This document shows positions 40,061 through 64,000 of a DNA stretch of 64,000 nucleotides, one piece after another; the stretch's first letter is position 1, and each line of letters starts with the position of its first letter. Under the pieces are notes generated by a model, which saw only the letters and a program-made list of their open reading frames with translations, made no database searches and was not told the DNA's origin. The DNA comes from Oidiodendron maius Zn (lineage: Eukaryota; Ascomycota; Leotiomycetes; Myxotrichaceae). Location of the stretch: assembly GCA_000827325.1 (NCBI GenBank), contig KN832878.1:1488001-1552000 (forward strand), written 5' to 3'. The position numbers and the translations under genes were made by a program.

Positions 40061-41081
40061 ATGTCTTCAGTTAAAGCAGCGAACCTATTCGATGTCAAAG
40101 GTCTCGTAGCCGTGGTAACTGGAGGTGGGACAGGCAAGTATATCCAAGCTTGTGGTCATAAGACACATCTGACATCAAGGACAGGTATTGGCCTCATGCT
40201 AGCCAAAGTCCTGGAAGAAAATGGAGCTAAAGTCTACATTGTGGGCCGTCGAATGGATGTTCTAGAGAAAGCTTCCAATGGACATGTGCGTGTCTCGAGA
40301 TGCATAGTGACTAGTTTTAAATGAGTCTTTACTGACGATTATATTCTGAAGCACGGAAATATCATCCCACTTCAAGGAGACGTAAGTAAAAAGGAAGATC
40401 TCCTGAAAATTGTGGATTTCATCACAAAAACGGACGGTTTTATCAATGCCCTGATTGTTAATCATGGAATTTTGGGTCCGGACCTAAATGATATCAACCC
40501 TGACCAGACACTCCTCGAAATGCAAGAAGTTCTCTGGAAGGCCAATGTTGACGACTTCACTAACACCTATCGTGTTAATACGTCGGCTGTATACTTCTCA
40601 ACGATCGCTTTCCTCGGCCTCTTGGAAGCTGGAAATAAGCAAGGTAACGTGGTACAGAAGAGCCAAGTAATCGCTACGGCTAGTATTGGTGGACTTGGTC
40701 GAGTGGCTCGACCTGGCATTGCCTACGTGACAAGCAAAGCCGCTGTCATTCATTTGATGAAGGTATTCGCTACTACTTTTGCGAACCATGACATTAGAAG
40801 TAATGTGATTGCTCCTGGACGTAAGTCATACGCTATGTGGTACAGAAAATTTGCTAATAAAGAAAGTATACCCCTCTGAAACGACAGAAAAAAAAATTAT
40901 CCCAAACTTTGCCCCCGATGGAGTGTTCCCGAGGGCATTAATCCCATTGCAACGACTAGGGTCTATTGAGGATATGGCTGGTGCTATCTTATACTTGACT
41001 TCACAGGCTGGAGCATTCGTCAATGGCAACGTGATTGTCACGGACGGCGGATCGTTGAGCATTTTGCCATCATCCTATTAG
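40061..41081 (+). CDS. Short-chain dehydrogenase/reductase, SDR 1
   Basis: An NAD(P)-dependent oxidoreductase, 285 aa. Exons 40061-40133, 40185-40285, 40352-40820 and 40867-41081. Intron 1 is GC-AG (donor GCAAGT); the others are GT-AG. Classical SDR marks: cofactor loop VVTGGGTGIGLMLA rebuilt across intron 1, PLQGDVS, LIVNHG in place of the usual NNAG, and the active site TASIGGLGRVARPGIAYVTSK with Ser and YxxxK. After it comes IRSNVIAPGLYPSE, restored by intron 3, and the C-terminal VTDGGSLSI. The substrate is unknown. It is the first gene of the second cluster and may oxidise or reduce a ring alcohol/ketone together with the BVMO. Confidence 0.87.
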
Positions 41082-41360
41082 ATAAACATCGGACGCAAGT
41101 CCTTCAGCATTTACCCCTAAACTGCATAAGAGCTTTATGTTGCCATTTGTCATTCATATTGAAGTTGTGAGCATCCGCTTCGCATCCTCCCCTTCTCCCA
41201 GGATAACCAGATCATAAATGATGAGCTTGCAGTCCAATTTACCGCATTAATTGTAAATTAAGATATAGTTCAAATATAGGACACTATTAGCTTGTAAGAT
41301 ATGGTGCTTTTGTACAAATTTTGTGTAGCAGAGTATATTATCCCATAATATACTATATTA
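41082..41360. other. 3' flank of SDR 1
   Basis: AT-rich spacer with no gene. Confidence 0.35.
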
Positions 41361-41369
41361 TAGCCATAA

Positions 41370-41930
41370 AATTATATGATCTTGATCATCCTCGTCACTC
41401 CTGTCCCAGTTCTTGTCTTCTCCACTGTTGCTATTATCCTCAGAGTCTCTGACTTTACTATCAAAGTCTCCGTCCTTGTTCTCAAGAAAATAGATGTTCT
41501 GAGATGGCGCGCTACAGAGCGTTGGAATGTCCAAGTAACTGAGATCTCTACCCGTATCTTCTTCAAGTTTGAACTTCTCATATATATATCTCCTTGAATG
41601 ACATCAGCAATTTCAAGTGCAACCTGACGATTCACTTGCTCATTCTCATCCTTCTGTGCTTGCTGCTGGATTATAGACCAGTAGTACATTTCCACAGGCG
41701 TCGCAGTCGGCTTCTTGTATCGTCAGCGTTCTCTTTCCCATTGTGGTTCATTGCATTCTCCTAATCGCTTTCATCTTTGAGCTCGCCCATGGGCTCTACT
41801 GATTCGGACAGAAGACCTCGCAGTTCTATCCGCGGCAATTCTCTCATGCTAAGCCATGCGATGGCATGCTTCAAAGGCTGTGGCTTCGCTCGGATTTCGC
41901 AAGTCATACTTAACTAATATTGACAATGTT
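41370..41930 (-). pseudogene. Degenerate gene for an acidic protein, unidentified
   Basis: On the complement, three protein-like blocks follow one another in shifting frames: KHAIAWLSMRELPRIEL, then QVNRQVALEIADVIQG, then FKLEEDTGRDLSYLDIPTL followed by an Asp/Glu-rich tail. An in-frame TAG lies near 41772, and the shift from the second to the third block falls in a TATATATA run near 41583. This is a disabled coding remnant. I do not recognise the family. Confidence 0.42.
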
Positions 41931-42663: not shown

Positions 42664-44348
42664 CTAGAGTACCGACTTCGGAAATACCTTCATTACTTGC
42701 CTGACTCCAAGATCTGCCAATATTTCTTCTGTTCCGCCAAGGATCGCATCAAACTTGTTGGTGCGATTAAACATTTCAATCACTCGACCCATTCCCGTTT
42801 CTGTCAGGCCTCTACCGCCAAATATATTGGTGGCGATACTTGATACCTCGGTCGCACTGGTAGTTGAATAGGCCTTGAGCAGCGCGATAGGGCCGCTTAG
42901 GTATTTCCCCTGCTCCTCATAATCCATCTTACACATCTGTAAAGTAATCGACTCCAGCCACGCCTGAATGGACTCTGCTAGAGAGATCATTCGAGCAAGC
43001 CTAGGACAGGTATTAGTTAAACTTATTTAAAAACCGAGGCAAGGGCGCGCAATCTTCACTACGTACTTTTGGCGTAGGACTGGCTGCTCGATGAGCTTCT
43101 TCTTAAACGAGATTCGCTGATTGCACCATTTTAGGCACTCCTCCACAACAGCAATGCACCAGCGGGCTGTGCTACACACCATAACGAATCGTTCATGATT
43201 GAAGTTACTCATAATTACCTTGGCACCTTGATCTTCTTCGCCTAGGAGATGCGACATCGGAACCCTGACATTAGAGAATTCCACATAAGCAGTCCCAGCA
43301 CTGGTTGAGTAAGCTGTTCTGATTGTTTTTGTCTCGACCCCATGCCCGCGAGGAATGAGGAGGACCGAGATACCCTTATCGGTTCGACATGCGGTGACGA
43401 AATAGTCTGAGAACATTCCATTCGTAATCCATTTTTTAGTCCCAGTGACAATGTAACACTGTCCATCTGGCGTCTTCTGAGCTATTGTCCGCAGACCATT
43501 AACGTCGCTGCCCGCGAAGGCTTCACTGATCGCCAGGCACATTTTCTTTCGGCCAGACAAGACCTCTTCCATTACTCGTTCACGAAGATCGTCGTCTCGC
43601 AGCCACTGCTTGACCGCGGTTAAGCTAATGCATACCCCGCCCATAAGCCCATCTTGGAAACCTATCAAATAATAAGTATGAAGTATCAAATAGAAGGGCC
43701 TATATTGAAAATAAGACCATAGAGGAAGTAAAACTTGCCTCTAGTATGACTACGGGAGAATTCTTGAGTGAGAATCAGGTCATGAAAGTAGTCGAACTCT
43801 CTCCCGTTGATGACGCCACCTAGTAGCCTCCGGCTGTAAAGATGTTCTCCAGGTCCTAATCGCATGGCCAAAATGTTCGTCTCAGCCAATTTATTGAGGA
43901 GCTTCTGACTGATATAGGTTCCATCAAGTTCCTTCTCCCGAGCTTCGGGGTTGACATTCTCGGCAAAAAATCTACGAACCGCTTTCTGAAACTTCCGGTG
44001 ACCTTGAGTGTAGTAGGGACTACAAAAACGTGCTCGCAGCCATAAGGGTTCCGCATAAGGAACAGAGCTTAAATCCTGGAGGTTCGTGGGGATTATCTCT
44101 TCCTTCTCACCCTGTAGAACACCGACGATCAGCTGAGGCCGATATTTGTTGAGAACTTCAGCACGGTGAAGATTGAAGAAATCGACAGTCACATCCTTTC
44201 CCGCACTCTGTGCAAGAACAACACACCCCCCAGGGTGGGCATCCAAGAAACCTGTTAAATCATAAGCACAATGGTCAATGATACACCAGCAATCCTCGGG
44301 TGTGTTATGATTGGCTACCTCATTGCGTGAGAGTGTACGGAGCGACAT
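42664..44348 (-). CDS. Acyl-CoA dehydrogenase with N-terminal cytochrome b5 domain
   Basis: A flavoprotein predicted to introduce an alpha-beta double bond in an acyl-CoA. Exons on the complement: 44348-43739, 43661-43067 and 43000-42664, total 513 aa. Intron 1 is GC-AG (donor GCAAGT) and rebuilds THTRGFQDGLMGG; intron 2 is GT-AG. Residues 1-75 are a cytochrome b5 heme domain with the axial-His motifs LDAHPGG and NLHRAEVL. Then come the acyl-CoA dehydrogenase N domain, the middle beta domain (ISEAFAGSDVNGLRT, GTKKWITNGMFSDYF) and the C-terminal helical domain (AISLAES-like region, NIFGGRGLTETG, ILGGTEEILADLG with the catalytic-base region). This fusion is known in fungi. Here it would fit beta-oxidation of a ring-opened acid. 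Confidence 0.9.
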
Positions 44349-46229
44349 ATTGATAACAACAGAGGCGCAAGAACGAAGAGAAGTGATAAAATGGGATGCG
44401 CACTCTGGCCATCAGATTATAGAATATAAAGTTGGCGAGTAGCATCTATACGGAGGCCATCGTTACTGATAAATAGGCCCCGGTGCTACTGTATCACGGA
44501 CCTCAGCACGGCCACAAATCTGCTCGGCAGCGGCTGATTCCGGGCTAATAAGTACGAAGTAGCAATGGAATAATGGAACCGCACTGTTAATGTTCTAAGG
44601 CCCAACATAGTATCGGAAATTGCCATACCGAACACAGCTGCACTATTCCCCCACACTGTTCAGCGTTGTTCTACGTTGTTCTAGCCTTTGCTTTTGGGCG
44701 ACAACGTCATCTGTCGCTCCTTCCGGCAGGGCTTATACCACACATGCATTTCTGAGATCCCTGTTTTCTAGAGGCGGATGCGGGTGCAGGGGACGGATGA
44801 AAGAGAGTCACGATCGTCGGTCTTGATCTGCTGCCCCTATTCCGAAAGTATCCGAGAGTTGTGACTTTTCTTGCTCTTAGTCTGTGTTCGATAGAATCGC
44901 GGTGTTGATTTAAACTGTCGGACCTAAGCTAGCTCGCGTACCGGGCCCTGTCAGGGCGTATTCAAAAGGTTAAGTTAATAATATCAGCAGAGGTGCGATT
45001 CCAAACTTCTGATATAAGCTAAAGAAAGTGCGGTGTAGCGTAGACAACTGGCTTCCGCCTATGCATGTATATCGGTAAACTAATTTTTGAACAGCAATAT
45101 CATGTTTAGAACGTGAGGTAGCGACACTCCTATAACCATAATGCGGACGTCGTGGCAATTTACTCGCACAACGGGCGACGGTAATCCCGGAGAAATATTT
45201 CACACTGGAAGATCCGCTCAAGAATGTATCAATGGGTCATTCTGTAGATCACTCTCTTCAGAGGGAGCTCGGAGGGAGCCATTAGTTATTAACTAGCCAC
45301 GGTCACCTTTTAGTAGATGTGTATAGTATTATCTATACAGCAATGGTAAGAATTAACGATCATCTGCATTCTATATCAGTTATACCAAGGGTAGGTCTGG
45401 CTAATCAATAACCGATCGTTCTCCCAGAGCTCTCTTCTACTACTGTTCTTGCGGACTCGCTCTCTTCACGAAGCGCGGTCTATAGACAGGGCTGCGCTTC
45501 AGGCCCCTCCAGCTCTCCAGAACGCCATCTGCATAGAACGGTTGCTTCTGTGGCCTGAAGTCGTACTTTATTTCAAGTGGTTGCATCTGTATCACTAGCA
45601 ATATTTTCTATAAGCATAACAGGAAACCTCTATATAGCTGAAGAAAATTAGCTAATCAGATATAAAGTGATTATTTTGCTCTAGGTGATTTTTTTCTTCT
45701 TGAAAGGAGCGGTCGTGGTCTGGTAATGAGGATATTATAAAAATCTATAATATCGTAGATTGCTAGATCAATTCATTACTGAAGAGGCAATGGACACAGT
45801 GGTAGTAGTAATAATGACGACTAATTAATAACGTGAATTGCACGTTGACATGAAAGTGATTTGCAATCACTAAGAGATTGATTGTCAGTCCCGAAGTTCC
45901 TCACCCGACATCTGCACGAACGACTCGTGGCAATGGTGGGCTCGCATACAGGCCTCCTACGCTATGTAGGAGCGAATAGGGCGTAGGAGGCTTCTACGTG
46001 AGCCGTCAATTATAGAGATGACACACGCGGTGCTACAATCATTGCTTTATAAGCGATTTGGGCGACACACGGCGTTCTCCTCGAAACCTATCGGATGCTG
46101 GGCCTAACATAACTGGTTGAGTGCCAGGAAATGTGGGAAAGCTTGCCCCGCGTCTTCTCTTCCCCGCAATGTAAATTGCGTATTCCCTCCTCCTTGATTT
46201 TCCTTCACGCATTTCCGTTATACTACACA
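44349..46229. other. Long intergenic region between the acyl-CoA dehydrogenase and regulator genes
   Basis: This 1.9 kb is the divergent promoter space. No gene is recognised. The block AATCG(C/T)(G/A)GTGTTGATTTAA near 44894-44916 recurs near 54847-54869, beside the GATCCGC array of the SDR 2/GST promoter. A single GATCCGCTC lies near 45210. Confidence 0.45.
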
Positions 46230-48792
46230 ATGTGGACACCAGAGAAACGACAGCGAGTTCCTCGCGCCTGTGACGAATGCAAGAGAAAAAAGAAACAGGT
46301 ACGTGAATATATTCAGCATTAGCAGAGAGTGCAAGGCCTCTAGATATATACAGCATCTAACTCTTTGCCCTGCCTTTGTAGTGTAGTGGAAAGTATCCTT
46401 GTACTACTTGTACCAGAAGATCACTCACATGCATCTTTTCCAATACTGCGCCTTCAGAGAACTTGCACCGCAATCCCGTTGAATTTAATGCCAAGGCATC
46501 AATGAGGAAGTTTAAATCAACCAAAGTTTTGCAAGCTGGGAGGCGCGACAGCATCAGCCTCTCTACTGCGGCTAACTTTCCTAATGGTCTTATTCCTGAA
46601 GATGAAGCACCGATTGAAAATCCAGGCAGGCTCTTGCAAGATAACATGGGACGAATGTGTAATTATATCAAGGCTTAGACTGTCCATGTTTTAGCTGCTG
46701 ACGTGGGGGAAAAGTATATCTAGGAGATTCTGCAACGTTATCCTTCCTTCACAGCATAAGAAGACTCGTAGCAAACAGTTTAGGGCCTTCGCCATTCACT
46801 ATGGATTCTAGCCGCTACAAAATTTTGGAAGCTGCAATATCAATACCCCCTTCGTGCCAACTTAATTACGCTCTGCCGGACCCGGAAGCTGCGCAATATC
46901 TTGTTGGGTCATTTTTCGCAAGTGTGAGTTGCAGGCTTGGGCTAAGCTCTATTGATAATGGGCCGTAACTAATATGTTGCTCAGATTGCTGGTCTCTTCG
47001 AAATCTTCGACAAGTCAGAATTTACCGCAAAGGTCCTGGACACTTATAGTCGCCCATTGGATGCAAGTCCGCAGTGGCTATGTCATCTTAATCTTGTCTT
47101 CGCTATAGGCTTGCAAATTTGTAAAGATATTACTACTCTAACTGCCGTAGAGACTTGCATCATGCAGAGGCTAGAAGGCAAAACTGTCAATAGGGCGGAA
47201 ATATTCTATATTACTGCCAAGGAGTTCAAAGACCCTGTACTAGCTATCGAAGGTGGTGAGATTTCGGACATCCAGTCTCTCTTATTAACGACAATATATA
47301 TGCTGGCTTCCTCGAAGAGAAATGCCGCCTGGGGATATCTAGGCAAGTCTTATTCCACATTTCCCGGAATCGAATTGTTTATATAAGCTTTGGTAAACTT
47401 GGTGACTCTAGACTGGTGGAGCTAATCTAGCGAGACGGCAGGAATGGCAGTAAATCTTGCTCACGCACTTGGACTTCAGAAGGAGGAGGCATTAATGTTA
47501 TTCAACCCAGCAGAAAGAGTAGAAAGGTGAAGAGTCGCTTCTTAAAATATTCCATCTGAACATATGAGACAATACTAATGATATTTGTAGAAGAAAGCTA
47601 TGGCAATCGCTATATATTATGGATAGCTTTTTAGCTACCAGTTTAGGCCGACCTAGTTCAATTAACGCTATCTCCGACTCTGATCTCTACGCCTCCTTGT
47701 CCTCTAGCGAAATTGCCTCGGATAGCAATGAGCTGCTCTTCTCCGTGAAGGCCTCAAAAATAGCAAGCGATATCCTCAGTCGCATATACCGCAATCGAAA
47801 GGCATCGCGCTCTATCGCATATACTCTCTCGCTACAACTTGGCGACTGGATGAAAGAGCTACCGGAGGAGCTACACTGGCGGAGAATCTCTGTTCTGAGC
47901 GAAGACCAGCACATGACGTTAAAGCGACTCCACATCAACTTGATCTACTTCCATGGAATCCAACTACTAACGCGGCCTTTTCTATTACACAAGATCAGCA
48001 AGCAATTGGGAGGGGAGATGAGAAGTGAGCAGCAGAATCTACCTTCGCGTGTTGACATTGGCCGGCCCGAACAAATTTTTTGCTTTCACGGTGCCTGTGT
48101 TAGATCCGCGATGCACACTATAAACGGGGTTTATGCCACATATAACGTGTCCGCTCTGCCCCGTCGGGATCCTTTCGTAATGTAGCCTCCCTCCCTCTTT
48201 ATCCTCCTCTTAAGCTAATTGTCCGACCTGTAGTTACTGGCTCTTCAGTGCCGCGCTGGTCATCCTCGCCAACATATTCAGCCCCGTGCATACTGAGGCT
48301 GACGGTAATGCCGCGGTCCAGAAAGCACTCGCTGTGATGTCGTTCTGCGGCGCTATCGACTCACAGGCCCATCGTTATCATGTTATACTAAAGTCGTTCC
48401 ATGATGTTCTCACTGCCGACGCCGCTAAGAAGAGCAATGGGCAAGGGCCACGCAGCGCACATGAAGATCGCAATGTCTTCGATGCTTTATTCGGGGCTGA
48501 GGATGCAAGCGTAGCACCTACATGGGGAACCAGTCTACCACTGGCCAGCCAAGCGGCTGGGATTATGAGGGGTCAAGGAGGGGGGACCCAACAAGCAGGT
48601 TCAAGCAGAATGGATGAGTTATACTCTACGGGATTGGATGCTAAGGAAAATTCTAGGCTTGCTGGTGACTTGACGGGTCTATCTGATGAAGCAATTGACT
48701 TTAATGGAGTTTGGTTATCAGGAGTCCAGGATAGTTTTGCTTTGACAGATGATATGCAGGACTCGTTATATAGGTTAATAGAGCTTGTATAA
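46230..48792 (+). CDS. Zn2Cys6 transcription factor of the second cluster
   Basis: Exons 46230-46298, 46382-46658, 46715-46923, 46985-47342, 47442-47526, 47591-48181 and 48234-48792 give 715 aa. The zinc cluster is split by intron 1: RACDECKRKKKQ | CSGKYPCTTCTRRSLTC, i.e. C-x2-C-x6-C-x5-C-x2-C-x6-C. A fungal-specific transcription-factor domain follows, with FLHSIRRLVANSLGPSPFT, IYMLASSKRNAAWGYLG | MAVNLAHALGLQKE and LATSLGRPSSINAI. Intron 4 is GC-AG (donor GCAAGT, branch GCTAATC); its splice restores GYLGMAVNLAHAL. The middle introns were placed by family resemblance, and intron 2 is the least certain. A truncated copy of the last exon lies at 37.3 kb. It probably controls the surrounding oxidoreductase genes. 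Confidence 0.82.
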
Positions 48793-48880
48793 GATACAGA
48801 TAGGGTAACTAGGTATTAAAATAACTTCCTTTTCCTTGGTCTAAATCCTATAGCTTATATCTAATATACTATATCTTATC
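48793..48880 (+). other. 3' flank of the regulator with RIP-like transitions
   Basis: This sequence is homologous to 37500-37590 but richer in TpA where the other copy has TpG or CpA. Confidence 0.6.
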
Positions 48881-49221
48881 TTGATGTAGAGGTTCGGTAG
48901 TACACAGGTTATAATCAAGAATCAAAGTGAAACTCAGTTATGTTAACTATAAGCTTTCGGTATAGCAGAATGCCGAAAGGGCTTTTAGTATAGCTGATAT
49001 ACTAAAAGCAGTAGATAACTTAAGTAATATAGAGACAACTAAAGTAAGAAGAGATTTAGAAGAACTAGAGCCTTTTATACTTAATACTATATACTTAATT
49101 AAGTCACTAAATAGACTCCTACTTAGTTACCTTATTATAGGCACTAGTAGATAGCCTAATAGGCAGCTGTATTATATGTATAGATATACTTAAAGCCTTA
49201 GAACTTAATCAATAAGTATTA
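48881..49221 (+). repeat. Solo-LTR-like repeat, copy E
   Basis: It starts TGTAGAGGTTCGGTAGTACA, carries GGTGAAACTCAGTTATGTTA, AGAATGCCGAAAGG and AGAGACAACTAAAG, and ends GAACTTAATCAATAAG. It is more AT-rich than copies C and D. It lies directly after the regulator's 3' flank. Confidence 0.65.
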
Positions 49222-50575
49222 TAGACTTCATGATATTATATCAATCACATTTTGAGTTCATATCTTGCACTGTTAGGTTAGGTTTGGAAGTCGTTAAAAT
49301 TAAGACATATTGCGGGAGGAATAGGGGATAAGGCCCTTGAAATTGTTCATAAGATGATATATAAAAGAAATACAGGATGGTTAAAACCAGAGGTGCATGC
49401 CAAAACGACTCCTTCTGTTGCAGGGGTTATAGCGATATGCTCTACACCCTAGATGTTGTCTTATGGTACTGTCTGGAGTGATGCTATAAACGGAGTGGAG
49501 TATCCCAATAAGGATTTTAGACCCTGTCGCGGATATCCATGTGAAATTGACGCTTGCTGTTTCTGCCTACGGTACGACATCTCTGTCTACTCATCTGACC
49601 CGCCCTCCGCCATCCGCCATCCGCGCCCTCCGCCTTCCGTCATCAGCCATCAGCCATCCGCCATCCGCCATCAGACGCGACCCGGCATATGACCTTGACC
49701 GTAAAACCTGGGACAAATGCGATCAAATTAGTCGATCAGCAAAATGGTAAGGACCGCATCTTGACATTTACCATTTTCGGCATCCACCTCATGAGACGCA
49801 GGCGAGATCAGGTAACTCCCTATACTGGTCACCCCATATTCTTACCGAACATGGATTCTCCTCTGAATTAAGAACTGCTTCATATCTACACGAATCCTCA
49901 CCTTCACTCAATTGCTAGTCACAGGACAGCTCAATGGTGCATATGTATTCCCCGGTTCAGAAGGCCTGGCGAATCTTCCAACTACTGTACAAGCGGGGCA
50001 GCCGTTTGAGCCAATCCGAAGCTGTGTTTGCGAGGGTACAGTATCGCACAAGGTTTGTCGCATGGCGAATATTTCTGGATCGTATTAGGAGCCTACTGTG
50101 TGACAAGTGGGTATGTGTTGTATTGCTGGTGGTTGTGATTTTTTGGTCCTCGAGGCGGGAAGGGGTTGACCTAACGTTGTGGCCTTCGTTTTTCCTAGAA
50201 GCCTGATCAGTACAACATCTTCCGTGAATAACTTTGCGTAATCTTTGTGTGCGTCTGGGGTGTCTGATATTTGGTAGAAACTTTAGAGGTAACTGATGAT
50301 GCCCTCGTTAGATGCCCTCGTTAAGGGTGTGTTGGGGGCTTGAATTGTTGTTATAACTTATTAGGCTTGTGTAATTTTGTAAATATGACTCGAGCATGGC
50401 ACCCATGCAGTTACATCCACGGCGGATCATGAAAGCGCGGAAGATACTACCGCACCCATAGTTGGATGTATGGCAATCTTGATGTCTGACTATAACCTGC
50501 GCAAGAGTCACCCCTGTGCTCAAGCTACATTATAGTATTGTGGCAGGATTATATTATTAGTTTAAGGCAGAGCAG
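49222..50575. other. Intergenic with unassigned open frames
   Basis: Frames at 49453-49692 and 49689-50206 could join through a GT-AG intron near 49813-49923, but the resulting peptides (for example AGQPFEPIRSCVCEGTVSHK) match nothing I know. No supported gene. Confidence 0.35.
49604..49676 (+). repeat. CCGCCAT-type minisatellite
   Basis: About ten imperfect 7-bp units (CCGCCAT, CAGCCAT, CCGCCCT, CCGCCTT) stand in tandem. Confidence 0.8.
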
Positions 50576-50591
50576 GTATATCATAGCGACA

Positions 50592-50775
50592 CTAATATTA
50601 TATTGACTCTATAAAACTCACGTGGGAAGGTATAATACTATAATTATGCTAATTTCTTATTCAAGGATAGTTTATCATACTAGTTGTATCCCAGAGCCTA
50701 TTAACAACTGAATATAACTCAACGAGAGGTATAATTAATTTGCGGCAGTAACTAGTCTGAGAACCGTTATTCGTC
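50592..50775 (+). repeat. Inverted-repeat partner, left copy
   Basis: It begins TAATATTATATTGACTCTAT and ends AGTCTGAGAACCGTTAT. The same sequence occurs in reverse complement at about 59346-59500, with gaps. Confidence 0.7.
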
Positions 50776-50865
50776 TGGGGAGGGGGTCATTTACGAGTTC
50801 TTGTGTAGCCGTTCCGAATGTGCCCCGAAAACGGACCTACTTTGAAGATAGAGAGAAGTGATCCG

Positions 50866-50935
50866 CAGGTGTGAGGGATCCGCTCGCTGGACTGACCCGC
50901 TTCCTGGACTGAGATCCGCTCGGTTATGGAAGTTC
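50866..50935 (+). repeat. GATCCGC-type short repeat array, copy 1
   Basis: Four spaced units, AGTGATCCGC, GGGATCCGCTCG, CTGACCCGCTTC and GAGATCCGCTCGG, are followed by TTATGGAA. The array lies about 210-280 bp upstream of the MDR gene. Confidence 0.75.
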
Positions 50936-51143: not shown

Positions 51144-52265
51144 ATGGCAACTCATAAAGCACTCATTCTTCACTCTGTCGACAAACCGTTGGTCCTCGAG
51201 ACCACCCCACGTCCAGTAGCTAAGGCCGGAGAAGCAGTGGTGCGCATTCTGGCAGCGGATATTGTGCCGTACATGTCTCAGATTTTGGACGGCTCTCGAC
51301 TACATATCCCTCCCCTGATACTTCCAATGACACCAGGGAATGCTGCAATTGGTAGAGTGTTTGAGACTGGCCCCGATGCTGTTAAGCTATCCCCGGGCCA
51401 ACTTGTCTTCTGTGACATTACCGTTCGTGGCCGGGATAATCCTGATGTGGCACTTTTATATGGAATACACGGAGACGGGAGCCCAGCCGCGCAGAAACTT
51501 CTGGATGGAGAGTGGCGGAACTCAACTTATGCAGAATACACCAAGTTCCCATTGGAAAATCTCTACCCGCTAAATGAAGACGTCCTAATCAACAAGATGG
51601 GATACACGTTCTCTGATCTTTGTTTGATGTCAGTGTGCCTAGTCCCCTTTGGTGGATTGTCGGACGTGGACGTTAAACCTGGAGAGGTGGTGATTGTGGC
51701 GCCTGCTACAGGTCGATACGGGGGAGCTGCAGTTGCGACGGCGCTCGCCATGGGTGCGATAGTGGTGGCAGCTGGTCGGAATAAATGTGCACTGGACGCA
51801 CTTTCCAAGACACATGCATCTACGGGTCGTCTAAGGACAGTGACCGTCACCAGTGACGTGTCAGATAATACAGCTGCATTTAAGAATGCAGCAAACAGAC
51901 CAGGCGGAGCCGATGTATACATTGACTTCTCGCCTCCTGCAATCGACGATAGCGTGCTCTTGACGTCTGCAATGGGAGCTTTACGTCATTTTGGACGATG
52001 TGTTATTATGGGCGGTAGGAACGGAAATATTGACGTGCCTTATCTGCCTATCATGCTCAAAAGCCTCCGGCTACAAGGACGGTTCATGTACTCCCGGCAA
52101 CATGTATTACAACTGATCCAAATGTTAGAATCGGGGTTACTGCAAGTCGGAGAAGGAATCGGGGTCAAGCACACGGAGTCATACGGACTGGAATCCATTG
52201 GTGAGGCACTTCAAGACGCAGGGAAGTGGTCGGGATGGGGTAACCAGACTGTGTTGAAGCCTTGA
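51144..52265 (+). CDS. Medium-chain dehydrogenase/reductase (zinc-less alcohol dehydrogenase-like)
   Basis: A single exon encodes 373 aa from the ATG at 51144 (an in-frame ATG nine bases upstream is possible). The N-terminal GroES-like domain has PRPVAKAGEAVVRILAADIV, PMTPGNAAIGRVFETG and KLSPGQLVF. The Cys/His zinc ligands of ordinary alcohol dehydrogenases (the usual GxCxxD and GHE motifs) are missing. The Rossmann domain has VAPATGRYGGAAVATAL, ADVYIDFSPP and RCVIMGGRNGNID. It therefore belongs to the MDR superfamily and acts as an NAD(P)-dependent reductase or dehydrogenase without a catalytic zinc. It lies downstream of a GATCCGC array and a TATATAA near 50999. The substrate is unknown. 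Confidence 0.86.
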   Translation: MATHKALILHSVDKPLVLETTPRPVAKAGEAVVRILAADIVPYMSQILDGSRLHIPPLILPMTPGNAAIGRVFETGPDAVKLSPGQLVFCDITVRGRDNPDVALLYGIHGDGSPAAQKLLDGEWRNSTYAEYTKFPLENLYPLNEDVLINKMGYTFSDLCLMSVCLVPFGGLSDVDVKPGEVVIVAPATGRYGGAAVATALAMGAIVVAAGRNKCALDALSKTHASTGRLRTVTVTSDVSDNTAAFKNAANRPGGADVYIDFSPPAIDDSVLLTSAMGALRHFGRCVIMGGRNGNIDVPYLPIMLKSLRLQGRFMYSRQHVLQLIQMLESGLLQVGEGIGVKHTESYGLESIGEALQDAGKWSGWGNQTVLKP

Positions 52266-53694: not shown

Positions 53695-54597
53695 TCAGAA
53701 TCTGGCTGCTAAGAGACCACCATCACATATAATATTAGCACCAGTTATAAAGGTACTTCCGTCGCTGAGCAACCAGTTCACTGTGTCAGCGACTTCCTCA
53801 GGATAAGCCTGTCTCCGCAATGGTGTTGAACTAGTGGTCCCCTCGATAAACTTTACTATCTCTGGCGACTGCGTCTCTAGCCAGCGAGAGAATCCATCGT
53901 GTGCGATGGGTCCTGGAGAAACAACATTGACACGGACGTCATAGGGCCCGTAGAACTGTGCACCAGTACGGGCGAGCGACAGAATGGCGGCTTTTGCGGC
54001 AGAATAACCAGGTAATCCTGCACCAGTGTTTCCATTGACGGACGAGATAGTGACAACCGCTCCTCGCTGCATTACTGTCCGAGAGGATGGAAATAATGTC
54101 ACTGGGCGAGGCTCCTGAGATCGCATTTGTATACACTCATACTTCTGACAGAGCCAATTTCCTCGTTGATTAACAGCATACATCCTAGACCAAGTTCAAT
54201 TTAATCAGTACTATCGATCAAATAAATCACAGTCGTCTCACTTGGTCAGTCCATGGTCAGCTTACCGGTCGAACTGTTCAGTCGTGACGTTGTCCTCATC
54301 CAGAGCCATAGCTTCTACTACACAGGCATTATTGCACGCCCAGTCAAGCCTTCCCCATCTATCCACGACTGTCTGAACCATGTTCCGCACATCTTCTTCG
54401 ATGCTGATGTCAGTTTTGACGAATACGGCATCGACACCGAAATCGTCCTTTAGTTCCTGAACGACCTTCTGGGACGTTGTCTCATTCACATCTGCAACGA
54501 GAATGTTGATGCCTCTGGATGCAAGCTTTCGGGCAATCACAGTCCCGGCTCCCTGGCCAGCACCAGTAACGATGGCAGTCTGATTAGTGGAAGTCAT
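53695..54597 (-). CDS. Short-chain dehydrogenase/reductase, SDR 2
   Basis: An NAD(P)-dependent oxidoreductase, 273 aa. Exons on the complement 54597-54266 and 54184-53695, with an 81-bp GT-AG intron. It is a classical SDR: AIVTGAGQGAGTVIARKLA at the N-terminus, VADVN at the end of the second strand (an Asp favouring NAD), DISIEEDV, WACNNACV, TISSVNGNTGAGLPGYSAAK with the catalytic Ser, Tyr and Lys, VRVNVVSPGPI, and the C-terminal ITGANIICDGG. It resembles bacterial-type glucose/cyclohexanol dehydrogenases, consistent with oxidation of a ring alcohol ahead of the BVMO, but this is inference. It shares its promoter space with the divergent GST gene. Confidence 0.9.
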
Positions 54598-54871: not shown

Positions 54872-54932
54872 ACAGAGTGATCCGAAGGCTGAAGTGATCC
54901 GCTGGTTGGAGTTATCCGATCCGCTCGCTTAT
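54872..54932 (+). repeat. GATCCGC-type short repeat array, copy 2
   Basis: Units AGTGATCCGAAGG, AGTGATCCGCTGGTTGG and AGTTATCCGATCCGCTCG are followed by CTTATGGAAACTAAC. It is homologous to copy 1 beyond the repeats (TTATGGAA, then a TTTC...CAGC.TCATC-like stretch). Confidence 0.75.
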
Positions 54933-55110
54933 GGAAACTAACAGGAGATTTCCACGGCAGCATCTCTTCTTTAGGCTAAAATAATACAGACGGCTCAGTA
55001 CCTTCGTTTTCTTCAAGATAGTAGTTGATGTGATATTTCCCAACATGTGCTTTCGGATATGCGAGCCGCACCACTGGTTACCAAACCATCCTCACCACCT
55101 CTTACTCCAT

Positions 55111-55175
55111 CCGACCCGATTTAAGGGTCGTATCCGACCCGATGTGAGGGGTGCTCTAGCTACCTTTCTGCAGTT
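55111..55175 (+). repeat. ~60 bp GACCCGAT element, copy 1
   Basis: Two CCGACCCGAT words flank AAGGGTC and are followed by GAGGGGTGCTCTAGCTACC. It is nearly identical to 60107-60172. It ends about 165 bp before the GST ATG. Confidence 0.8.
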
Positions 55176-55338
55176 GCTTTTATCAGGGATCTTGGACGTC
55201 AACATTAACCGGGAAAAGGAATGTAATTTGCAGGGACGTGATTTGCAATTTTTTCGGCGCAAGTACTTCTTCGGTATCTCTCCAACTCCATTGAGCCCAA
55301 CATCAGAAATATCCTTTTGCTTCAAAGGCGAACGTAAA

Positions 55339-56079
55339 ATGATATCACAAACCAAACCGATCAGGATCTGGGGTCAAGTCGGTCCCAATCCTCTCAAAAT
55401 TGCTATCATCTTGAAAGAACTCGACCTTCTCTACGAGGTAGTCCCTGTTCCCCTCTCGGATATCAAACAGCCCGAGTACCTCGCCATTAACCCCAACGGT
55501 CGATTACCAGCCATCCACGACCTCAATACTGGCATCATTCTGTGGGAGACGGGTGCCATTATCGAGTATTTGATCGAGAACTACGACACGCATCATAGAT
55601 TGAGTTTTGCTGCAGGTACGCCCGAGTCGTATCATGCTAAGCAGTGGTTGTTCTTCCAGGCGACCGGACAAGGCCCATACTACGGACAGTTAGTCTGGTT
55701 CAAGAAATTTCACATTGAGCAGGTTCCAAGTGCCATTGAGCGCTATATCAATGAATTAAACCGGGTAACAGGCGTCTTGGATGGGTATTTGTCGCTGCAA
55801 AAACAGGAACATGGTGACAGAACAGATGGTGATGGGCCATGGCTCGTGGGCAACAAATTTTCCTATGCTGATATCGCATTCATCGCACACCAGAGAATGC
55901 CAAGTATGTACTTTGATAAGGATGAATTCGACGAGGACAAGTTCCCACATGTCAAAGAGTGGCTAGGCAAGATGACTTCGCGTGAGACGATTAAAGCTGT
56001 GGTCGAATCTTACGATCATGCAATGGGGCAGACTGATTTCAGTACGATCCAGGACAGAAAGATGTTTGAAGCTCGATAG
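55339..56079 (+). CDS. Glutathione S-transferase (Ure2/theta-like)
   Basis: Single exon, 246 aa from the ATG at 55339, chosen because the thioredoxin fold begins right after it (IRIWGQVGPNPLKIAIILKE). The N-terminal domain has the glutathione-site marks NPNGRLPAIHD (cis-Pro) and LWETGAIIEYL (Glu-Ser/Thr-like glutathione contact). The helical C-terminal domain has WLFFQATGQGPYYGQ and SYADIAFIAHQR with the N-capping Asp. The usual catalytic Ser/Tyr near the N-terminus is not obvious, as in Ure2-type proteins. Its likely job is conjugation or reduction of electrophilic intermediates (enones, epoxides) made by the cluster; that is inference. Confidence 0.9.
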   Translation: MISQTKPIRIWGQVGPNPLKIAIILKELDLLYEVVPVPLSDIKQPEYLAINPNGRLPAIHDLNTGIILWETGAIIEYLIENYDTHHRLSFAAGTPESYHAKQWLFFQATGQGPYYGQLVWFKKFHIEQVPSAIERYINELNRVTGVLDGYLSLQKQEHGDRTDGDGPWLVGNKFSYADIAFIAHQRMPSMYFDKDEFDEDKFPHVKEWLGKMTSRETIKAVVESYDHAMGQTDFSTIQDRKMFEAR

Positions 56080-56538: not shown

Positions 56539-58644
56539 TTACTTGTATACGTAAAACGCCAAATCTTCACCACGTTCTTCAAGACTCGTCATCCCATTAC
56601 CCATGAATCTAAAACTATTTTTTGAGCAATACTCGATGTCGAAGTCTTCTCCTCTGATTTGATCGAGAATTTCTATATATATTACATGAGATTCGAGGCT
56701 ACCAAGTGGGAGGGGAGTGAGGACTAACCTTTGTAGTGCAACATAGACCCGGCATACATGGCGGTGACCTTACCGTCAATCTTTCCATTTTTATACCAAC
56801 TGCGACAGCCACTAGTCCATACAGTACGCTTCAAGAATTCTTGACTGTAGACGTTGTAATCATTAACGGATTTTTGCTTGACAGCCACATGACTGAGAGA
56901 AAGAGGACACATGATCAGTTTTCTAAGTCAATGGAAGGATTTCTTAATGTTGAATACCTGATGTCCTCTGTCGCAATCTTTTTAACCCATTTCAGGATGT
57001 ATTGGGCTGTCCATTCCATGACGGAAAGCAAAGAACCGTGGCCCACAGGGCTGTTCGGCCCATTGAAGATAAAGTAATTAGGCACGTCTGGAGCGCAGAT
57101 GCCAAAGTACGCCTCCGGATCGTCTGCCCAGTCTTTTTCTAGGCACTTGCCGTTGGCACCAATCAACTTCCAATTAGGCTTGAAGGAAACGTCGAAGCCG
57201 GTCGCTGCAATGATAATATCAAACTCTTCCAGTCCATTCGAGGTCTCAATGCCGCTTTCAGTAATGCGGATGATGGGATCGAAATCGCATCTCGCATTAG
57301 GTTCTTGAATAGCCTCAAGGTAGCCATCACCTGGAGTTAGTCTTCGACATCCAACCTTCCAATGCGGAACCAGCTTATCAATGAGCTCCCTGTTGTTGTT
57401 GAGTCGCTCGGTCATCAATTTTAGGAGAACTTCGTGAACAGCTATTTGTTGAGGCGAATCTTTGAACATCGCATAGAAAAACTGATTAAAACTGTATTCT
57501 TGTCGTCAAAACCAGATATCTTTAATTATCTTTGAACTGAGAATCAATTGAGGTAGGTGTGTATCACTTACCTATTTTCAATTTCATGCCGTATCTTAAA
57601 TAGAACGTCCGGGTGGTCGCGAAACTCTTGCTTCTCTTTCTCGGTATAGTTAAAATTCTTCCCATTTTTGGCATATTGGCTTGCGATATTCGTACTGATC
57701 CAGGTTGCAGATCTCACGTAGTTAACGAGTTTCGCAGCGGCGGGTTGCATTTGTGGCACAATTTGAATAGCAGAGGAGCCATTACCGATGATTGCAACTC
57801 GTTTACCTGCCCACTGGCAACTCTCATCCCTTTGGAAGTTAGTTAGTAAATTGGTAATTGCGTAATGCCTAATGGTATCAATCACCATTTAGCGCTGTGG
57901 ACCAACTGTCCTTTAAAGCTGTTCAGTCCACTAATTTCCGGCCACACCCATTTGCTGATTGTTTGTATTAGACACTGTTACAAAGAATGGATCAGGGGTA
58001 CAGACTTGAGAAATCCAGATCCATTAACCAAGATGTCAGCTTCATCATTCGCGATAACACCCTTGTTATTCACTTTAATCTTCCACTTTCTAGTCGACTC
58101 ATCCCAGACTGATTCGGTGACCACCGTGTTGAATTGAACATCTCGGTCTAGATTATACTTGAGAGTAGTCCGCTTAATATACTCCCATATTTCAGGTCCT
58201 TTGGCATAGAAGCTAGTCCAATCCGGATTTGGTTCGAAAGAGAAGGTGTAGATATCTGTGAAGTCTCAGCTAGAAAGATTTCCGTAAGAGCCATATTAAA
58301 CCCACGTGCTGGAACATCACTTAGAAGGCATTAGCAAAAGAGGATTAGTTGAGTGGAAAGGTCCATGTTGCCTACCATGCCACTCCTGGGTAACGGTTCT
58401 CTAGCCAAGTTCCGCCAACATCATGATTCTTCTCATAGATACGCAAGCCCACATAGTCTTCCATCTTCATCTCTCGAAGATAATAGGCCAGCATAAGGCC
58501 GGAGTATCCCGCACCAATGCACACAACTCTCAACCTTTTGGGTGCATATACAGCACTTTCGAGTATGGGAGCCCAATTGGACGAATGGCCGTCACTGGCA
58601 CCATTGGTGTCGTTGGGTAGATGGATATCTGAAACTAAATGCAT
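56539..58644 (-). CDS. Type I Baeyer-Villiger flavin monooxygenase
   Basis: An FAD/NADPH enzyme that inserts oxygen next to a ketone, giving an ester or lactone. Exons on the complement: 58644-58376, 58319-58306 (14 nt), 58255-58006, 57954-57886, 57829-57572, 57491-56958, 56892-56729 and 56672-56539, total 563 aa. FAD Rossmann loop CIGAGYSGLMLAYYL, then GGTWLENRYPGVACDVPAH rebuilt over the 14-nt exon. The BVMO fingerprint FxGxxxHxxxW(P/D) reads FKGQLVHSAKWD across intron 4. The NADPH loop is IIGNGSSAIQIVP. ATGFDVSF and FIFNGPNSPVGHGS follow in the C-terminal half. All seven introns are GT-AG and the frame closes exactly. The substrate is unknown; it is the signature enzyme of the second cluster. 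Confidence 0.92.
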
Positions 58645-59206: not shown

Positions 59207-59265
59207 GCGGAGTGATCCGCCCACTGATCCGCTGGTTGAAGTGATCCGCTCGCTGATGAAATATG
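59207..59265 (+). repeat. GATCCGC-type short repeat array, copy 3
   Basis: Units AGTGATCCGCCCA, CTGATCCGCTGGTTGA and AGTGATCCGCTCGCTGATGA. It is about 560-620 bp upstream of the BVMO start and in the same orientation as copies 1 and 2. Confidence 0.75.
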
Positions 59266-59345
59266 TTAGTTACAGTAAGCTGACGAATTCCACCTCACCA
59301 ATCAATCAGAGTACGAATATACGGATCATTCGGATTCTTAATCGA

Positions 59346-59500
59346 TAACGGTTCTCAGACAAGTGACACCCCTTATTAGTGATATCCCTCATTCGTATTC
59401 AGTAGTTAATAAGCTATTGAATAAAAAATTATAGTATGATTATAGTATAATATCTTCCTACCTGAGCTTTATAGAGTCAATATAATATTACTAGAGTTAC
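59346..59500 (-). repeat. Inverted-repeat partner, right copy
   Basis: In reverse complement it reads TAATATTATATTGACTCTAT ... GTCTGAGAACCGTTAT, matching 50592-50775 with some gaps. Confidence 0.7.
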
Positions 59501-59526
59501 AATATGCTCTTTATAGGAGGTCATTC

Positions 59527-59770
59527 GCGGTCGCTATCAAGGTGAAACTCGGTTTTATTGACTATTGAGTGATGCAGAGACAGCAAAAGGGGCCTAGATT
59601 TCTGGGCATAATGCCGGTATATATAGACGCTCAGGCAGTAATATATGTTTACTCTTACTTATGGGTTTACGTAGACCCGTAGTACGATATTGCCAGAGAC
59701 GCTGAAACATCATGATATATACCTGAGACACAATGCCCAAGTACCCCTCGTGCCGGCCAAAAAGTAAAAC
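59527..59770 (+). repeat. Solo-LTR-like repeat, copy F (partial)
   Basis: It contains ATCAAGGTGAAACTCGGTTT, GACTATTGAGTGATGCAGAG and a downstream region like that of copy B. The first ~30 bp of the family are missing. Confidence 0.55.
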
Positions 59771-60106
59771 CCCTTGTCAAGCAACACGCTGAGCCTCTTC
59801 AGATCTTTTCATAATAATACGGAGTTCAACGAGAATTTCGGTTGGCTCATAAATTGCTGCATTGGCGTGTATATTTTATGTTGGATTTTACTTGGGCATT
59901 ATAAGTATACCTACTATGCTTAAACTAATAATATCATTTCATGGTTCTATAGTATATTTATCTAGTAGGGCTTTTATAAACCTAGAACTCTAATATTTTA
60001 GTAAGCAGTTGTTAAACCTTAAACTAACAGTATAGTTCCGACCTAGTCTCTTTTCTATTAAGTTGTATTAACAGTTACTAAGCTATCCTCAATACTTCTT
60101 AATGTA

Positions 60107-60172
60107 CCCGACCCGATACAAGGGTCTACATCCGACCCGATATGAGGGGTACTCTAGCTACCTTTCGGCCGT
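60107..60172 (+). repeat. ~60 bp GACCCGAT element, copy 2
   Basis: CCCGACCCGATACAAGGGTC, then ATCCGACCCGATATGAGGGG and TACTCTAGCTACCTTTC. It ends about 130 bp before the hydrolase ATG, the same arrangement as copy 1 before the GST. Confidence 0.8.
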
Positions 60173-60299
60173 GGTCTCTGTTATGTACTGCTTTACCTCC
60201 AATTTCCGGTCTCGAGTTGCTATATTTACCCCTAGAAGTCCTACCTGCAGATTCCTACCAATTTCTTATTACATGTTGAGTTTAATTTTATTCAGCAGA

Positions 60300-61245
60300 A
60301 TGGCTGTAACTCGTCGCAACATTTCATTTTCCACTGTCGATGGAATCACGCTCAGAGGTTGGTTCTACAGCGCTGGTGGCAGTGCCAAGCGTCCGTGCAT
60401 TATTATGGCTCATGGAGTTTGGTTTCCCTTCAATTTTTGGGGGGCATACGCTAATTTCAACAAAGCTAGCTGGTCTGAAGGAGCAATTCCTTCCAAGTTT
60501 TGCTGAGAGATTCCAAGCCGCCGGTTACGCAGTCCTTGTGTACGATCACCGCAATTGGGGCTCAAGTGACGGTCTTCCGCGAAGCGAGACAGATCCTATC
60601 CAACAAGCGCGCGACTTTTCGGATGCTTTCGATTTTGTCGCCTCTTTAGAAGAGGTCGACAATGCCAAGATTGTCTACTGGGGTAGTAGCATGAGTGGAG
60701 GGGCCGTACTTTACGCAGCGGCTCTTGACAAACGAATTCGAGCTGTGATATCCCAAGTCCCTTTTGTGTCTGGCGAATCGATCAGTCCGCTCTTTGCTAA
60801 GATGGGCCCTTCTATCTACGCTAGCCGACAACATGTCAAAGCTGGTAGTGCTCCGGCATTGATGAAAATGTTCCCAGAGACCTCCGAGGACACGGACCCA
60901 AGCACAATTATGCATGATCCCAATCTTATACCAAGTTTGAAAGCCCTGGAAGCACAGAATCTATCGTTCTCCTCAAGCGTTACACCGCAGACGCTTCTCC
61001 ACCTCTTCGGATTTGAACCTCTGGCATTTGTCCATCGTATTGCCCCAACAGCACTCTTTATCGTTGTCGCAGACACCGATAACACGGCAGGGACCTCAGG
61101 ACAGCTCAAGGCGTACGCGTCTGCATATGAACCAAAAAGGATGGTTCTCTTGGAGGAGAGCGGCCACTTTGATGTTTATTACGGTGAAGGGTTTGAAAAG
61201 AACATCAAAGCGCAGCTGAACTTTCTCAAAGAGTTCTGTATCTAG
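60300..61245 (+). CDS. Alpha/beta hydrolase (S15/DltD-like branch)
   Basis: A serine hydrolase, 298 aa. Exons 60300-60416 and 60466-61245, with a 49-bp intron with donor GTTTGG, branch GCTAAT and acceptor AAAG. The splice restores IIMAHGLAGLKEQFLPSFAE. The core has LVYDHRNWGSSDG, the nucleophile elbow YWGSSMSGG (GxSxG as GSSMSG), PTALFIVVADTD with the Asp and EESGHFDVYYGE with the His. The N-terminal RNISFSTVDGITLRGWFY strand pair is typical of the branch. It could open the lactone formed by the BVMO; the family also includes other esterases. It is preceded by the GACCCGAT element. Confidence 0.86.
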
Positions 61246-62750
61246 ATACTCTCTGCCAGACAGTTTGATACTTATGGACTGGTTTGCCAACTGGGTGCAA
61301 TAATGTGATGTCATGAAGAGCCGATAGTTGACCGAACTATTAAATCCTTGTATAATTGTTGGGGAATAGTACGTGCATCCCCTTCCTGCAACATCTATCT
61401 AGTTATGCCTCTTTATATAGCTGTTTGGGTGTGTTTTATGTGCACGTTACGGTTGCTGCTCACCAGCATGTGCTTGTGTGCAGCTGTCGGAGTTGATGGA
61501 TAGACTGTACCGTGCCAGTTGACCTCCGCGTGCCTCTATATATTACAGCACCAATTTCTCTCGGCACTTCTGTCCCAGAAATTGAAGGCAAGTTAAGTTC
61601 AAATTGCAAATTTGTAAGTTCTGCGTTCAGTCCTGATATTTACCAGGGTTTCCTGTAGTGCACAATGGAGTGTGAAATAAACCTGCAGAACTTTATGCAG
61701 TGTGGAATTGGACTTCTCTCCCATACAAATTTGTAATGTTGCCAATATAGTGTGGCATAATATCGTGGTTGGCAAATCTTAGCAGTACAAACTAGAATCT
61801 AGCATACTACTGAAGACACTCGTCCTGATCATCATCTGCCAGAAGCTATCGCCACTTAGGTTTTGTGATAGGTCGTATCCATATCCCGATTGCCGCATGC
61901 CTAATCCAGCGCTCCTGTATTGTTGGTTCTGCTCTGTCAAGCGGCGTGCTTGAACAGTCCAATCACATATATGCCATACACGAAGATATATCTTCCTAGC
62001 CCATGGGACGGGAATGGAAGTTTGCCTAAGGGTTCCCCTTTTTCATTGGATATGCGATAGAAAGCTTCTTTTTACCTTAACTAGGCTGTTATATACTGCC
62101 GCCTGCAACAGTTAAAAGCGCCTCTAGGACCAGTCACAGTTCTTAGAAAGGCCAGATTCTGGGTAATGCATTATATATGCATCATACTTGGCATAGTTAC
62201 CTGGGTGGCTGTAGCTAACAATCAAGTGCTGTCTAATATCTAGAGATGTAGATACACTGACTCTCAAATCACCAGTATAAGCATTTACTATGAGCTATCT
62301 GGCTAAGTACCTTGATAGTCCTGATGTGTGATATGTAGAGGCAATTTTGAGCCGGTATTAGATGAATAAAATAGAGTTATCATGAGATTGGCGTTGTGGC
62401 TTTAAATCTTCGAAATTTCCTTGCGATGTAAATACCGATTGCGTCCGAGCTTAATCAAGCAAATTATCCGGTACTTGAATACAGTCTTTTATAGCTAAAC
62501 CTATAATGTAACGGATGACTCTGTTGTAATGCGATTCGTGGTTGAATCAGCTTTATTGGATGCATATCCATCCAAATATACCCCATGCGGTGAAACACAT
62601 GAGCTTTAAACTATCAGCCTGAGGAAGTCGTCCCAAATAACAAGTCTATGAAAAGAGAAATGTCGAACAAATATTAATAAAAATCAGACACTACTCTTCA
62701 ACATCATTTCACCTGTCACTGCGCGTGACTCTAAAGACGAACAGTGTTCA
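61246..62750. other. Intergenic, no gene seen
   Basis: 1.5 kb between converging genes. A short word pair (CAAATTTGTAA) recurs near 61607 and 61726. No ORF with a recognisable domain. Confidence 0.4.
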
Positions 62751-64000
62751 TCAACGTTTTGGAAGAAAGTTCAGCTCTTGCGCCGTCTTCATGACTTCCA
62801 AAAAGTCTGCTACTGAGTTGACAGTGGCGTGGAATCCGAACCGTCGTGCCTTACTCATGTCTAAGACGATCTCATGCTGGATGCTCACCATCCCGTCAGC
62901 GAACCCCCAGCTGGCCTCGTAGAACACCGCTCGATCTAGATCTTCGCGCGCTACGAGTCTGTCCCACGCGGCCCGGACATGCTCCTGTTTGGCCCATTGT
63001 TCCAGGCTGAGCCGCAGCTCGAACACCCCGTGTTCGAGTGGATCCCGGGGTGACGGGAGGTCGCTGATGGACCGGACGGGAAATTCCCCTGGCCGGCTGA
63101 GTACCGCGTTGCTCGCTACCGGCGTCGAGAAGTACGCGGCCACGGCTGGCAGGATGCGCGACCAGCTTGTCAGATCGCCGTTGGCTGCGTTGAATGCTTC
63201 ATTGGCACAGGCGGGTGTGAGCGCACAGTATTCTGCGAGCGCAGCATTGAGCGTCGCCGACGATAAGGTGTCAATCCCAAAGTACTTCGAGCGGGTGCCA
63301 TGAAACACCACCGACTCTCCCAGCTCGCGGCAGATGACGGTGTACAGGCCGATGGCAATTCTTTCATACCATGGGAATTAGAATTGATTCAGTTTTATGC
63401 TTTACGGGGATATTTATATTTTCTTACGCGATATTCATGAAATTTCCCTTAACAGCTCCGACGACAGACGAGGGTCGTATCACTGACCAGTCGAAATGCT
63501 GTTGTGGTCCCAGCTCTTTCAAGATATCTTCCTGGCTAAGCAAAAATGGTCAATATTATGACGCATCAATGGAACGGAATGAGTAGGTCTTACTTGTAGT
63601 AAAAGTTGGGTAGAGTGAGGACGCGCGGATCGTCCTCTTGACACGGGGACACCGCTGGACCTATATGGAGCCCATAGTGCTATTGGCCTCAAGCTGTCAG
63701 CATCGGCTTCTCTCCTCTGATCTCATTAAGAGAGGTAGGGCGAGGGAAGGCAGGAGGGAAGTCAGGAAGGAAGAAAATGAAAAGAAGGAGGTCCTATATC
63801 GGCTTACCTTGCCTCCTGTCTGCAGGACCAGTCGTTTGAACGGTCGGCCTTTCAGAGCTAGAATGAAATCGCGGAGCATTTGACCTGCAGGAAACCCATC
63901 AGGGCTGCTACAAGGGGTGGAGATGGAGAGACAGACTATTTTCGACTACCATCTGGTCCTGTCCTCCCCACAGCTTCCCGTCGTCGCCGGAGGACTCCTT
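62751..64000 (-). CDS. PRISE-like NAD(P)-dependent reductase (progesterone 5-beta-reductase/iridoid synthase-like), partial
   Basis: Extended-SDR fold. Readable exons on the complement: 63884-63808, 63679-63594, 63535-63428 and 63360-62751; at least one more upstream exon crosses the right edge. The joins give LRDFILALKGRPFKRLVLQTGGK | HYGLHIGPAVSPCQEDDP, then NFYYNQEDIL, DWSVIRPSSVVGAVKGNFMNIA and the C-terminal NEAFNAANGDLTSWSRILP. These are the marks of the fungal SirQ/PRISE-type family: QTGGKHYG..GP, FYY.QED, and the active-site Tyr within FYY. Family members reduce enone C=C bonds in steroids or iridoids. Here it could act on an unsaturated ketone in the same pathway as the BVMO. The start lies outside the window. 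Confidence 0.82.

Follow-up and report, generated by a model that had tools for sequence, protein, structure and literature searches.

Nine adjacent genes at the right end of a 64-kb stretch of the Oidiodendron maius Zn genome (GenBank assembly GCA_000827325.1, 45.9 Mb in 58 contigs) raise the question of whether they form a pathway for the oxidation and cleavage of a ring ketone or have come to lie side by side by chance. The stretch, here called the window, comprises bases 1488001-1552000 of contig KN832878.1 (C9) and was analyzed together with 58 kb to its right, giving a joined stretch of 122 kb; positions are counted from the first base of the window. A sequence-only reading had proposed one undescribed nine-gene cluster with its own regulator. 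The five contiguous genes g4 to g8 are most likely the core of the locus, and we tentatively favor, as a reading that is quite possible and still short of probable, a catabolic or detoxification neighborhood for an alicyclic or terpenoid compound supplied from outside.

The gene models, built partly by a small codon-based finder and partly by hand, span 40061-64315, with the PRISE-type gene g9 extending 315 bases beyond the window. All nine models yield uninterrupted proteins, with 24 introns altogether, and each protein matches its expected Pfam family over the curated cutoff, which upholds the families that had been read from motifs and the intactness of the genes. Comparison with solved structures covered six proteins (g2, g4, g6, g7, g8, and g9), and comparison with NCBIfam covered five (g1, g4, g5, g7, and g8). 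The C-termini of the models, from g1 to g9, are SSY, SVL, ELV, LKP, ARF, EAR, VYK, FCI, and PKR, none of which is a canonical peroxisomal targeting signal type 1 (PTS1) by the usual rule.

By its motifs, g7 is a type I Baeyer-Villiger monooxygenase (BVMO), as had been claimed, and is predicted to turn ketones into esters or lactones. Its sequence FKGQLVHSAKWD (residues 191 to 202) fits the BVMO fingerprint FxGxxxHxxxW(P/D). The first Rossmann motif, GAGYSG at residue 44, fits GxGxxG, and the second, GNGSSA, has Ala at the last place, which is common in the BVMO family. Among solved chains, g7 is nearest to phenylacetone, steroid, and cyclohexanone monooxygenases.

The protein g8 is an alpha/beta hydrolase with a Ser-acid-His triad, in which GSSMS, VVADTD, and ESGHFD line up with the corresponding parts of PDB entries 6lzh and 7d78 and the triad residues are presumably catalytic. 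Its top solved relative is GrgF (PDB ID 6lzh; E 2.7e-36), and the alignment is full length with GrgF and likewise with 7d78. Where this close relative has Cys at the nucleophile position (GLCFG), g8 has serine (GSSMS). The best NCBIfam match of g8 is the UilS lactonase (NF047920; 8e-38, 130.7 bits), under the cutoff of 400 bits, so it is a lead toward lactone hydrolysis by g8 and not family membership; UilS is a lactone-opening acyl-homoserine lactonase (PMC11633161).

The medium-chain dehydrogenase/reductase (MDR) g4 lacks the GHE zinc motif anywhere in its protein, in agreement with its earlier description as zinc-less. The short-chain dehydrogenase/reductase (SDR) g5 carries TGAGQGAG, an Asp after beta-2, and YSAAK, and by the usual SDR rule we take the Asp to indicate an NAD-type enzyme. 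The solved chains nearest to the glutathione transferase (GST) g6, which is classed by family match alone, are fungal Ure2p-type GSTs (PcUre2p4). The dehydrogenase g5, the BVMO g7, and the lactone-type hydrolase g8 are located together within 7.6 kb.

From these families we infer the substrates and the order of the reactions. In the proposed route, g5 would oxidize a ring alcohol to the ketone; g4, or g9 if it is a member, would reduce a conjugated double bond; g7 would insert oxygen to convert the ketone into a lactone; and g8, with its Ser-Asp-His triad, would cleave the lactone to give a hydroxy acid. A possible task of the GST g6 is to scavenge electrophilic enone or epoxide intermediates, and the Zn2Cys6 factor g3 might switch the genes on when the substrate is present.

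Shared intergenic sequence most likely marks out g4 to g8 as a five-gene core. Ten intergenic regions were compared as 45 pairs, each against 40 dinucleotide shuffles, leaving out the dispersed repeat at 48793-49229 and everything left of 39000. Three pairs, which join the region before g4, the g5/g6 region, and the g7/g8 region to one another, are clearly above their shuffles; they score 102, 101, and 44, whereas the highest shuffle scores are 29, 37, and 30. None of the remaining 42 pairs exceeds its own shuffle maximum. The similarity resolves into blocks A and E and three T arrays (Table 1). Block A consists of two pieces over about 150 to 180 bp, the best being 74 bp at 86% identity and the other 76 bp at 74%. 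A genome search with the copy between g7 and g8 returned the partner upstream of g4 as the sole A match among the 40 of 202 candidates that were scored, the others hitting a short dispersed repeat, and a search with the g4 upstream region had 40 of 269 candidates scored; because of these scored fractions, the view that block A is private to the locus was dropped. Block E has two genome matches, both at this locus (2/2 candidates scored). The 122-kb self-comparison (E 1e-4) revealed, besides the blocks, dispersed repeats, a relic of g3, tandem or inverted copies lying close together, and a single 73% match between places 28 kb apart. A 20-bp repeat, GAATCG..GTGTTGATTTAA, before g2 and g5 was rejected as a dispersed repeat that resembles sequence at 70361 and, via it, at 77428.

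The same similarity would be transposon debris and the result of local duplication if the locus were a chance neighborhood, where several oxidoreductase genes independent of one another, along with a regulator, share an AT-richer stretch scarred by transposons beside a quinate cluster, an explanation that we consider doubtful while giving it real weight. Part of its support comes from the T arrays. The T 14-mer TGATCCGCTSGYTG has three exact genome matches, all here, and 56 when one mismatch is allowed, versus 25 for the reversed pattern. The spaced pattern KGATCCG-N10-KGATCCG has 18 exact genome rows, some of which come from both ends, or from overlapping units, of a single copy, and 56 rows at up to one mismatch versus 30 for the reversed pattern. 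Several rows form inverted pairs 0.4 to 1.9 kb apart, and 15 of the 18 exact rows lie elsewhere. Ten transposon sites were read, one without the unit (L044) and two with units in one orientation only (L040 and L043). They belong to a transposon- or miniature inverted-repeat transposable element (MITE)-like family with inverted ends of about 47 bp built of 17-bp repeats. A pair of copies of roughly 1.86 kb share 83.5% identity, several others measure roughly 0.4 to 0.95 kb, and the 17-bp units stand inverted at both ends. For this reason, the use of T as a promoter motif proving coregulation was withdrawn.

Two of the three arrays at the locus match these ends directly. The array at 59.2 kb does so at 71 to 80% over 44 to 49 bp (59224-59272 at 80%, with E 1e-6 against a small database), and the array at 50.9 kb at 77 to 84% over 29 to 44 bp (best E 0.002). 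For the array at 54.9 kb, the best hit among the ends that were read is not significant (18 bp, E 0.44), and its tie to them runs solely via its likeness to the other two. The three arrays are concentrated within 8.4 kb, which may reflect insertion, local duplication, or retention. Further dispersed repeats with dozens of copies are found at 48850-49226, at 37.5 to 38.9 kb, and at 59535-59612 (searches with 40 of 269 and 40 of 202 candidates scored), the first and last of which also fit a chance neighborhood.

Local rearrangement, which would fit such a neighborhood, is seen at 37269-37580, where a relic of the g3 last exon, truncated and broken in frame, has pieces 87% and 91% identical to the exon and is its only other genome match (2/2 candidates scored). 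The genes g1 and g2 lie between the g3 exon and the relic, suggesting that the left part arose with local duplication. Against this explanation, both genome matches of block E are here, and neither A nor E has a match in the ten transposon-site stretches read; five contiguous intact genes with a coherent reaction order also argue against chance.

Several results weigh against the catabolic reading of the locus. The T arrays are best read, from their sequence, as old transposon ends, and the intergenic similarity therefore need not imply coregulation. T arrays, A, and E were undetected before g1, g2, g3, g9, and the cytochrome P450 gene beyond g9, and in the intergenic pair test none of them was detected in the control region of the putative regulator g3. 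Of the single nine-gene cluster proposed earlier, the common blocks retain g4 to g8, and the other four genes are without them, the blocks themselves being partly transposon-like. Pfam revealed no coenzyme A (CoA) ligase, enoyl-CoA hydratase, thiolase, or transporter among the nine genes (the flanks were not scanned systematically). The claimed sequence from alcohol to ketone, lactone, and open acid is coherent and has published precedents, but its beta-oxidation end is weak because the ligase, hydratase, and thiolase are missing from the nine genes.

Genome-wide paralogue searches with g4, g7, and g8 as queries point the same way, as no second copy of the cluster, as would also be expected of a chance neighborhood, was found in the 15 stretches read. 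Paralogues of the BVMO and the hydrolase lie about 22 kb apart at C25:315001-355000, paralogues of the MDR and the BVMO about 6 kb apart at C13:1425001-1445000, and, on C17, relatives of the hydrolase and of an SDR at a distance of about 4 kb, while SDR and BVMO relatives adjoin at C9:1430001-1440000 and on C20. At no such site do relatives of three families occur together, and some SDR/BVMO adjacency is expected because both gene types are numerous in the genome. None of 13 bacterial loci with g8 relatives has relatives of the other eight proteins (E 1e-4; 4.6 to 16.9 kb examined).

It is unlikely that the genes serve a secondary-metabolite pathway as its tailoring arm, with the scaffold synthase at another locus. 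In such a pathway, the BVMO would expand a terpenoid or polyketide ring, and g8 would be a hydrolase of the acyl-transfer or chain-release type, consistent with its closest solved relative, GrgF, which we take to be an enzyme of gregatin biosynthesis; the serine nucleophile of g8, in place of the Cys of GrgF, argues against this. The best NCBIfam model of g7, pentalenolactone D synthase, would fit a tailoring role, with a score far under the cutoff, and split pathways occur in fungi. A synthase was not detected in or next to the cluster, by open-frame length in the 122 kb and by two families genome-wide, and the earlier statement that no scaffold synthase is present holds over that distance. 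No open frame in the 122 kb is longer than 912 residues, which is the length of a repressor-like protein of the quinate cluster; nonreducing polyketide synthases (PKSs), nonribosomal peptide synthetases, dimethylallyltryptophan synthases, and UbiA proteins were judged by this length, which small or intron-rich genes can escape. The genome-wide search covered PS-DH, a domain of reducing PKSs, and Terpene_syn_C_2. PS-DH has 41 genome matches, of which the closest lies about 390 kb to the left and none lies to the right, where the contig ends 253 kb from the window, and Terpene_syn_C_2 has 8, the nearest 544 kb away, so both families are absent within about 390 kb.

It is improbable that g4 to g8 form a lactone-route catabolic regulon whose control regions arose by local duplication and captured transposon-end arrays as a shared switch, for which the CCG/CGG triplet in each 17-bp TGATCCGCT repeat of the T arrays could be a candidate Zn2Cys6 binding site. 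If the arrays were functional, mobile DNA would be wiring a metabolic cluster.

The catabolic or detoxification reading can be compared with known systems. Wang et al. 2014 reportedly described induced gene clusters in Grosmannia clavigera. The carveol route of Rhodococcus erythropolis DCL14 comprises carveol dehydrogenase, carvone reductase, monocyclic monoterpene ketone monooxygenase, lactone hydrolase, CoA activation, and beta-oxidation (PMC4097962). The reaction order proposed here is identical, and the likeness is by reaction order alone; the DCL14 route is bacterial, has a known substrate, and includes CoA activation, whereas the nine genes here include no CoA ligase. A fungal parallel, compared by description only, is G. 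clavigera, where two BVMOs are implicated in limonene detoxification; a 2021 review lists them as peroxisomal, whereas g7 ends in VYK, without PTS1 (PMC8120277). Because these two systems precede it, "undescribed" was too strong as a kind in the sequence-only reading, and the locus is likely an ordinary catabolic or detoxification neighborhood.

The core atranone cluster of Stachybotrys is likewise fungal and includes a BVMO (ATR8) with FXGXXXHXXXWD, which lends some support to a tailoring role for g7, but it is biosynthetic and has a terpene cyclase and a PKS, neither of which was found at this locus (PMC4117958). This different cluster came up in a literature search on the combined families; within the literature searches made, no matching system was found. 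The physiological substrates and roles of BVMOs are described as widely unknown (PMC4498894), and the 2021 review names the G. clavigera enzymes as the only fungal ones characterized in terpenoid detoxification (PMC8120277). Another compact locus, combining a BVMO and a lactonase-like hydrolase with a regulator next to them, would offer a practical setting in which to find a substrate.

Table 1. Genes and shared intergenic blocks of the locus, in window coordinates (FMO, flavin-containing monooxygenase)
Feature	Position	Strand	Description
g1, classical SDR	40061..41081	+	278 aa, 3 introns (first GC-AG); Pfam, NCBIfam, motifs
g2, cytochrome b5 + acyl-CoA dehydrogenase fusion	42664..44348	-	513 aa, 2 introns (first GC-AG)
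g3, Zn2Cys6 + Fungal_trans factor	46230..48792	+	715 aa, 6 introns (one GC-AG)
Block A	50593..50770	.	upstream of g4; inverted copy 59345..59490 between g7 and g8
T array	50859..50931	+	upstream of g4; 17-bp direct repeats around TGATCCGCT
g4, zinc-less MDR	51144..52265	+	373 aa, single exon; Pfam, solved structures, motif check
g5, classical SDR	53695..54597	-	273 aa, 1 intron; Pfam, NCBIfam, motifs
T array	54878..54936	+	between divergent g5 and g6
Block E	55077..55174	+	98 bp, about 165 bp before g6
g6, glutathione transferase	55339..56079	+	246 aa, single exon; Pfam, solved structures
g7, type I BVMO (by motif)	56539..58644	-	563 aa, 7 introns; FMO-like Pfam and FKGQLVHSAKWD
T array	59211..59261	+	between divergent g7 and g8
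Block E, second copy	60074..60172	+	about 128 bp before g8; 81% identity
g8, alpha/beta hydrolase	60300..61245	+	298 aa, 1 intron; Pfam, NCBIfam, structure alignment
g9, PRISE-type reductase	62751..64000 (start codon 64315, past window)	-	419 aa, 4 introns
P450	~64700-66870	divergent from g9	one piece scored

The genes flanking the core, g1, g2, g3, and g9, may or may not be members. The SDR g1 carries TGGGTGIG, GRR after beta-2, and YVTSK, the GRR presumably indicating an NADP-type enzyme by the usual SDR rule; the presumed cofactor types of the two SDRs therefore fit oxidation by g5 and reduction by g1. In g2, the N-terminal, middle, and C-terminal acyl-CoA dehydrogenase Pfam domains are all over the cutoff. 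The Glu of its NHER motif, which we take to be the catalytic base, aligns with LDLER of human isovaleryl-CoA dehydrogenase (PDB ID 1ivh), and GGT stands at the medium-chain-type base position. In g3, six of six zinc cysteines are kept. The claim that the genes have their own regulator is borne out insofar as a Zn2Cys6 gene is adjacent; a role of g3 in their regulation is suggested by this position alone. A single GATCCGCT is found at 45211, between g2 and g3.

The genes g1, g2, and g3 contain one GC-AG intron each (40134-40184, 43662-43738, and 47343-47441, respectively), all with the donor GCAAGT and each required for a conserved motif or the reading frame. These 3 of the 24 modeled introns are more than the approximately 1% usual in fungi.

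The PRISE Pfam domain of g9 scores 68.7 bits versus a cutoff of 27. The protein carries GGKHY and NFYYN, whose Lys and Tyr we assume to be catalytic, and can be aligned with progesterone 5-beta-reductases and iridoid synthases of plants. A cytochrome P450 gene lies just past g9 on the opposite strand, with a 226-residue piece scoring as p450 at E 7e-19. Because it lies directly beyond, the window edge is not the cluster edge, and the P450 could lengthen the neighborhood to the right.

On the left, the studied region is bordered at 17793-36739 by a cluster that we take to be of the quinate-utilization (QUT) type. Its genes encode a type II dehydroquinase, a TIM-barrel dehydratase-like protein, a sugar-type transporter, two quinate/shikimate dehydrogenase-like proteins, a Zn2Cys6 factor, and the SKI/DHquinase_I/Shikimate_DH repressor-like protein. 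Relatives of g7 are located 33 to 55 kb left of the window, at C9:1433176-1434852 (about 38 to 47% identity by pieces), with an SDR relative beside it, and at C9:1453683-1455250 (33 to 44%). To the right, an open frame at 78 to 79 kb of the joined stretch was rejected as a lactonase, as it matches no Pfam family at 1e-5, and an intact FAD monooxygenase, salicylate-hydroxylase-like by eye, lies at 82575-83925 of the joined stretch (C9, approximately 1570575-1571925).

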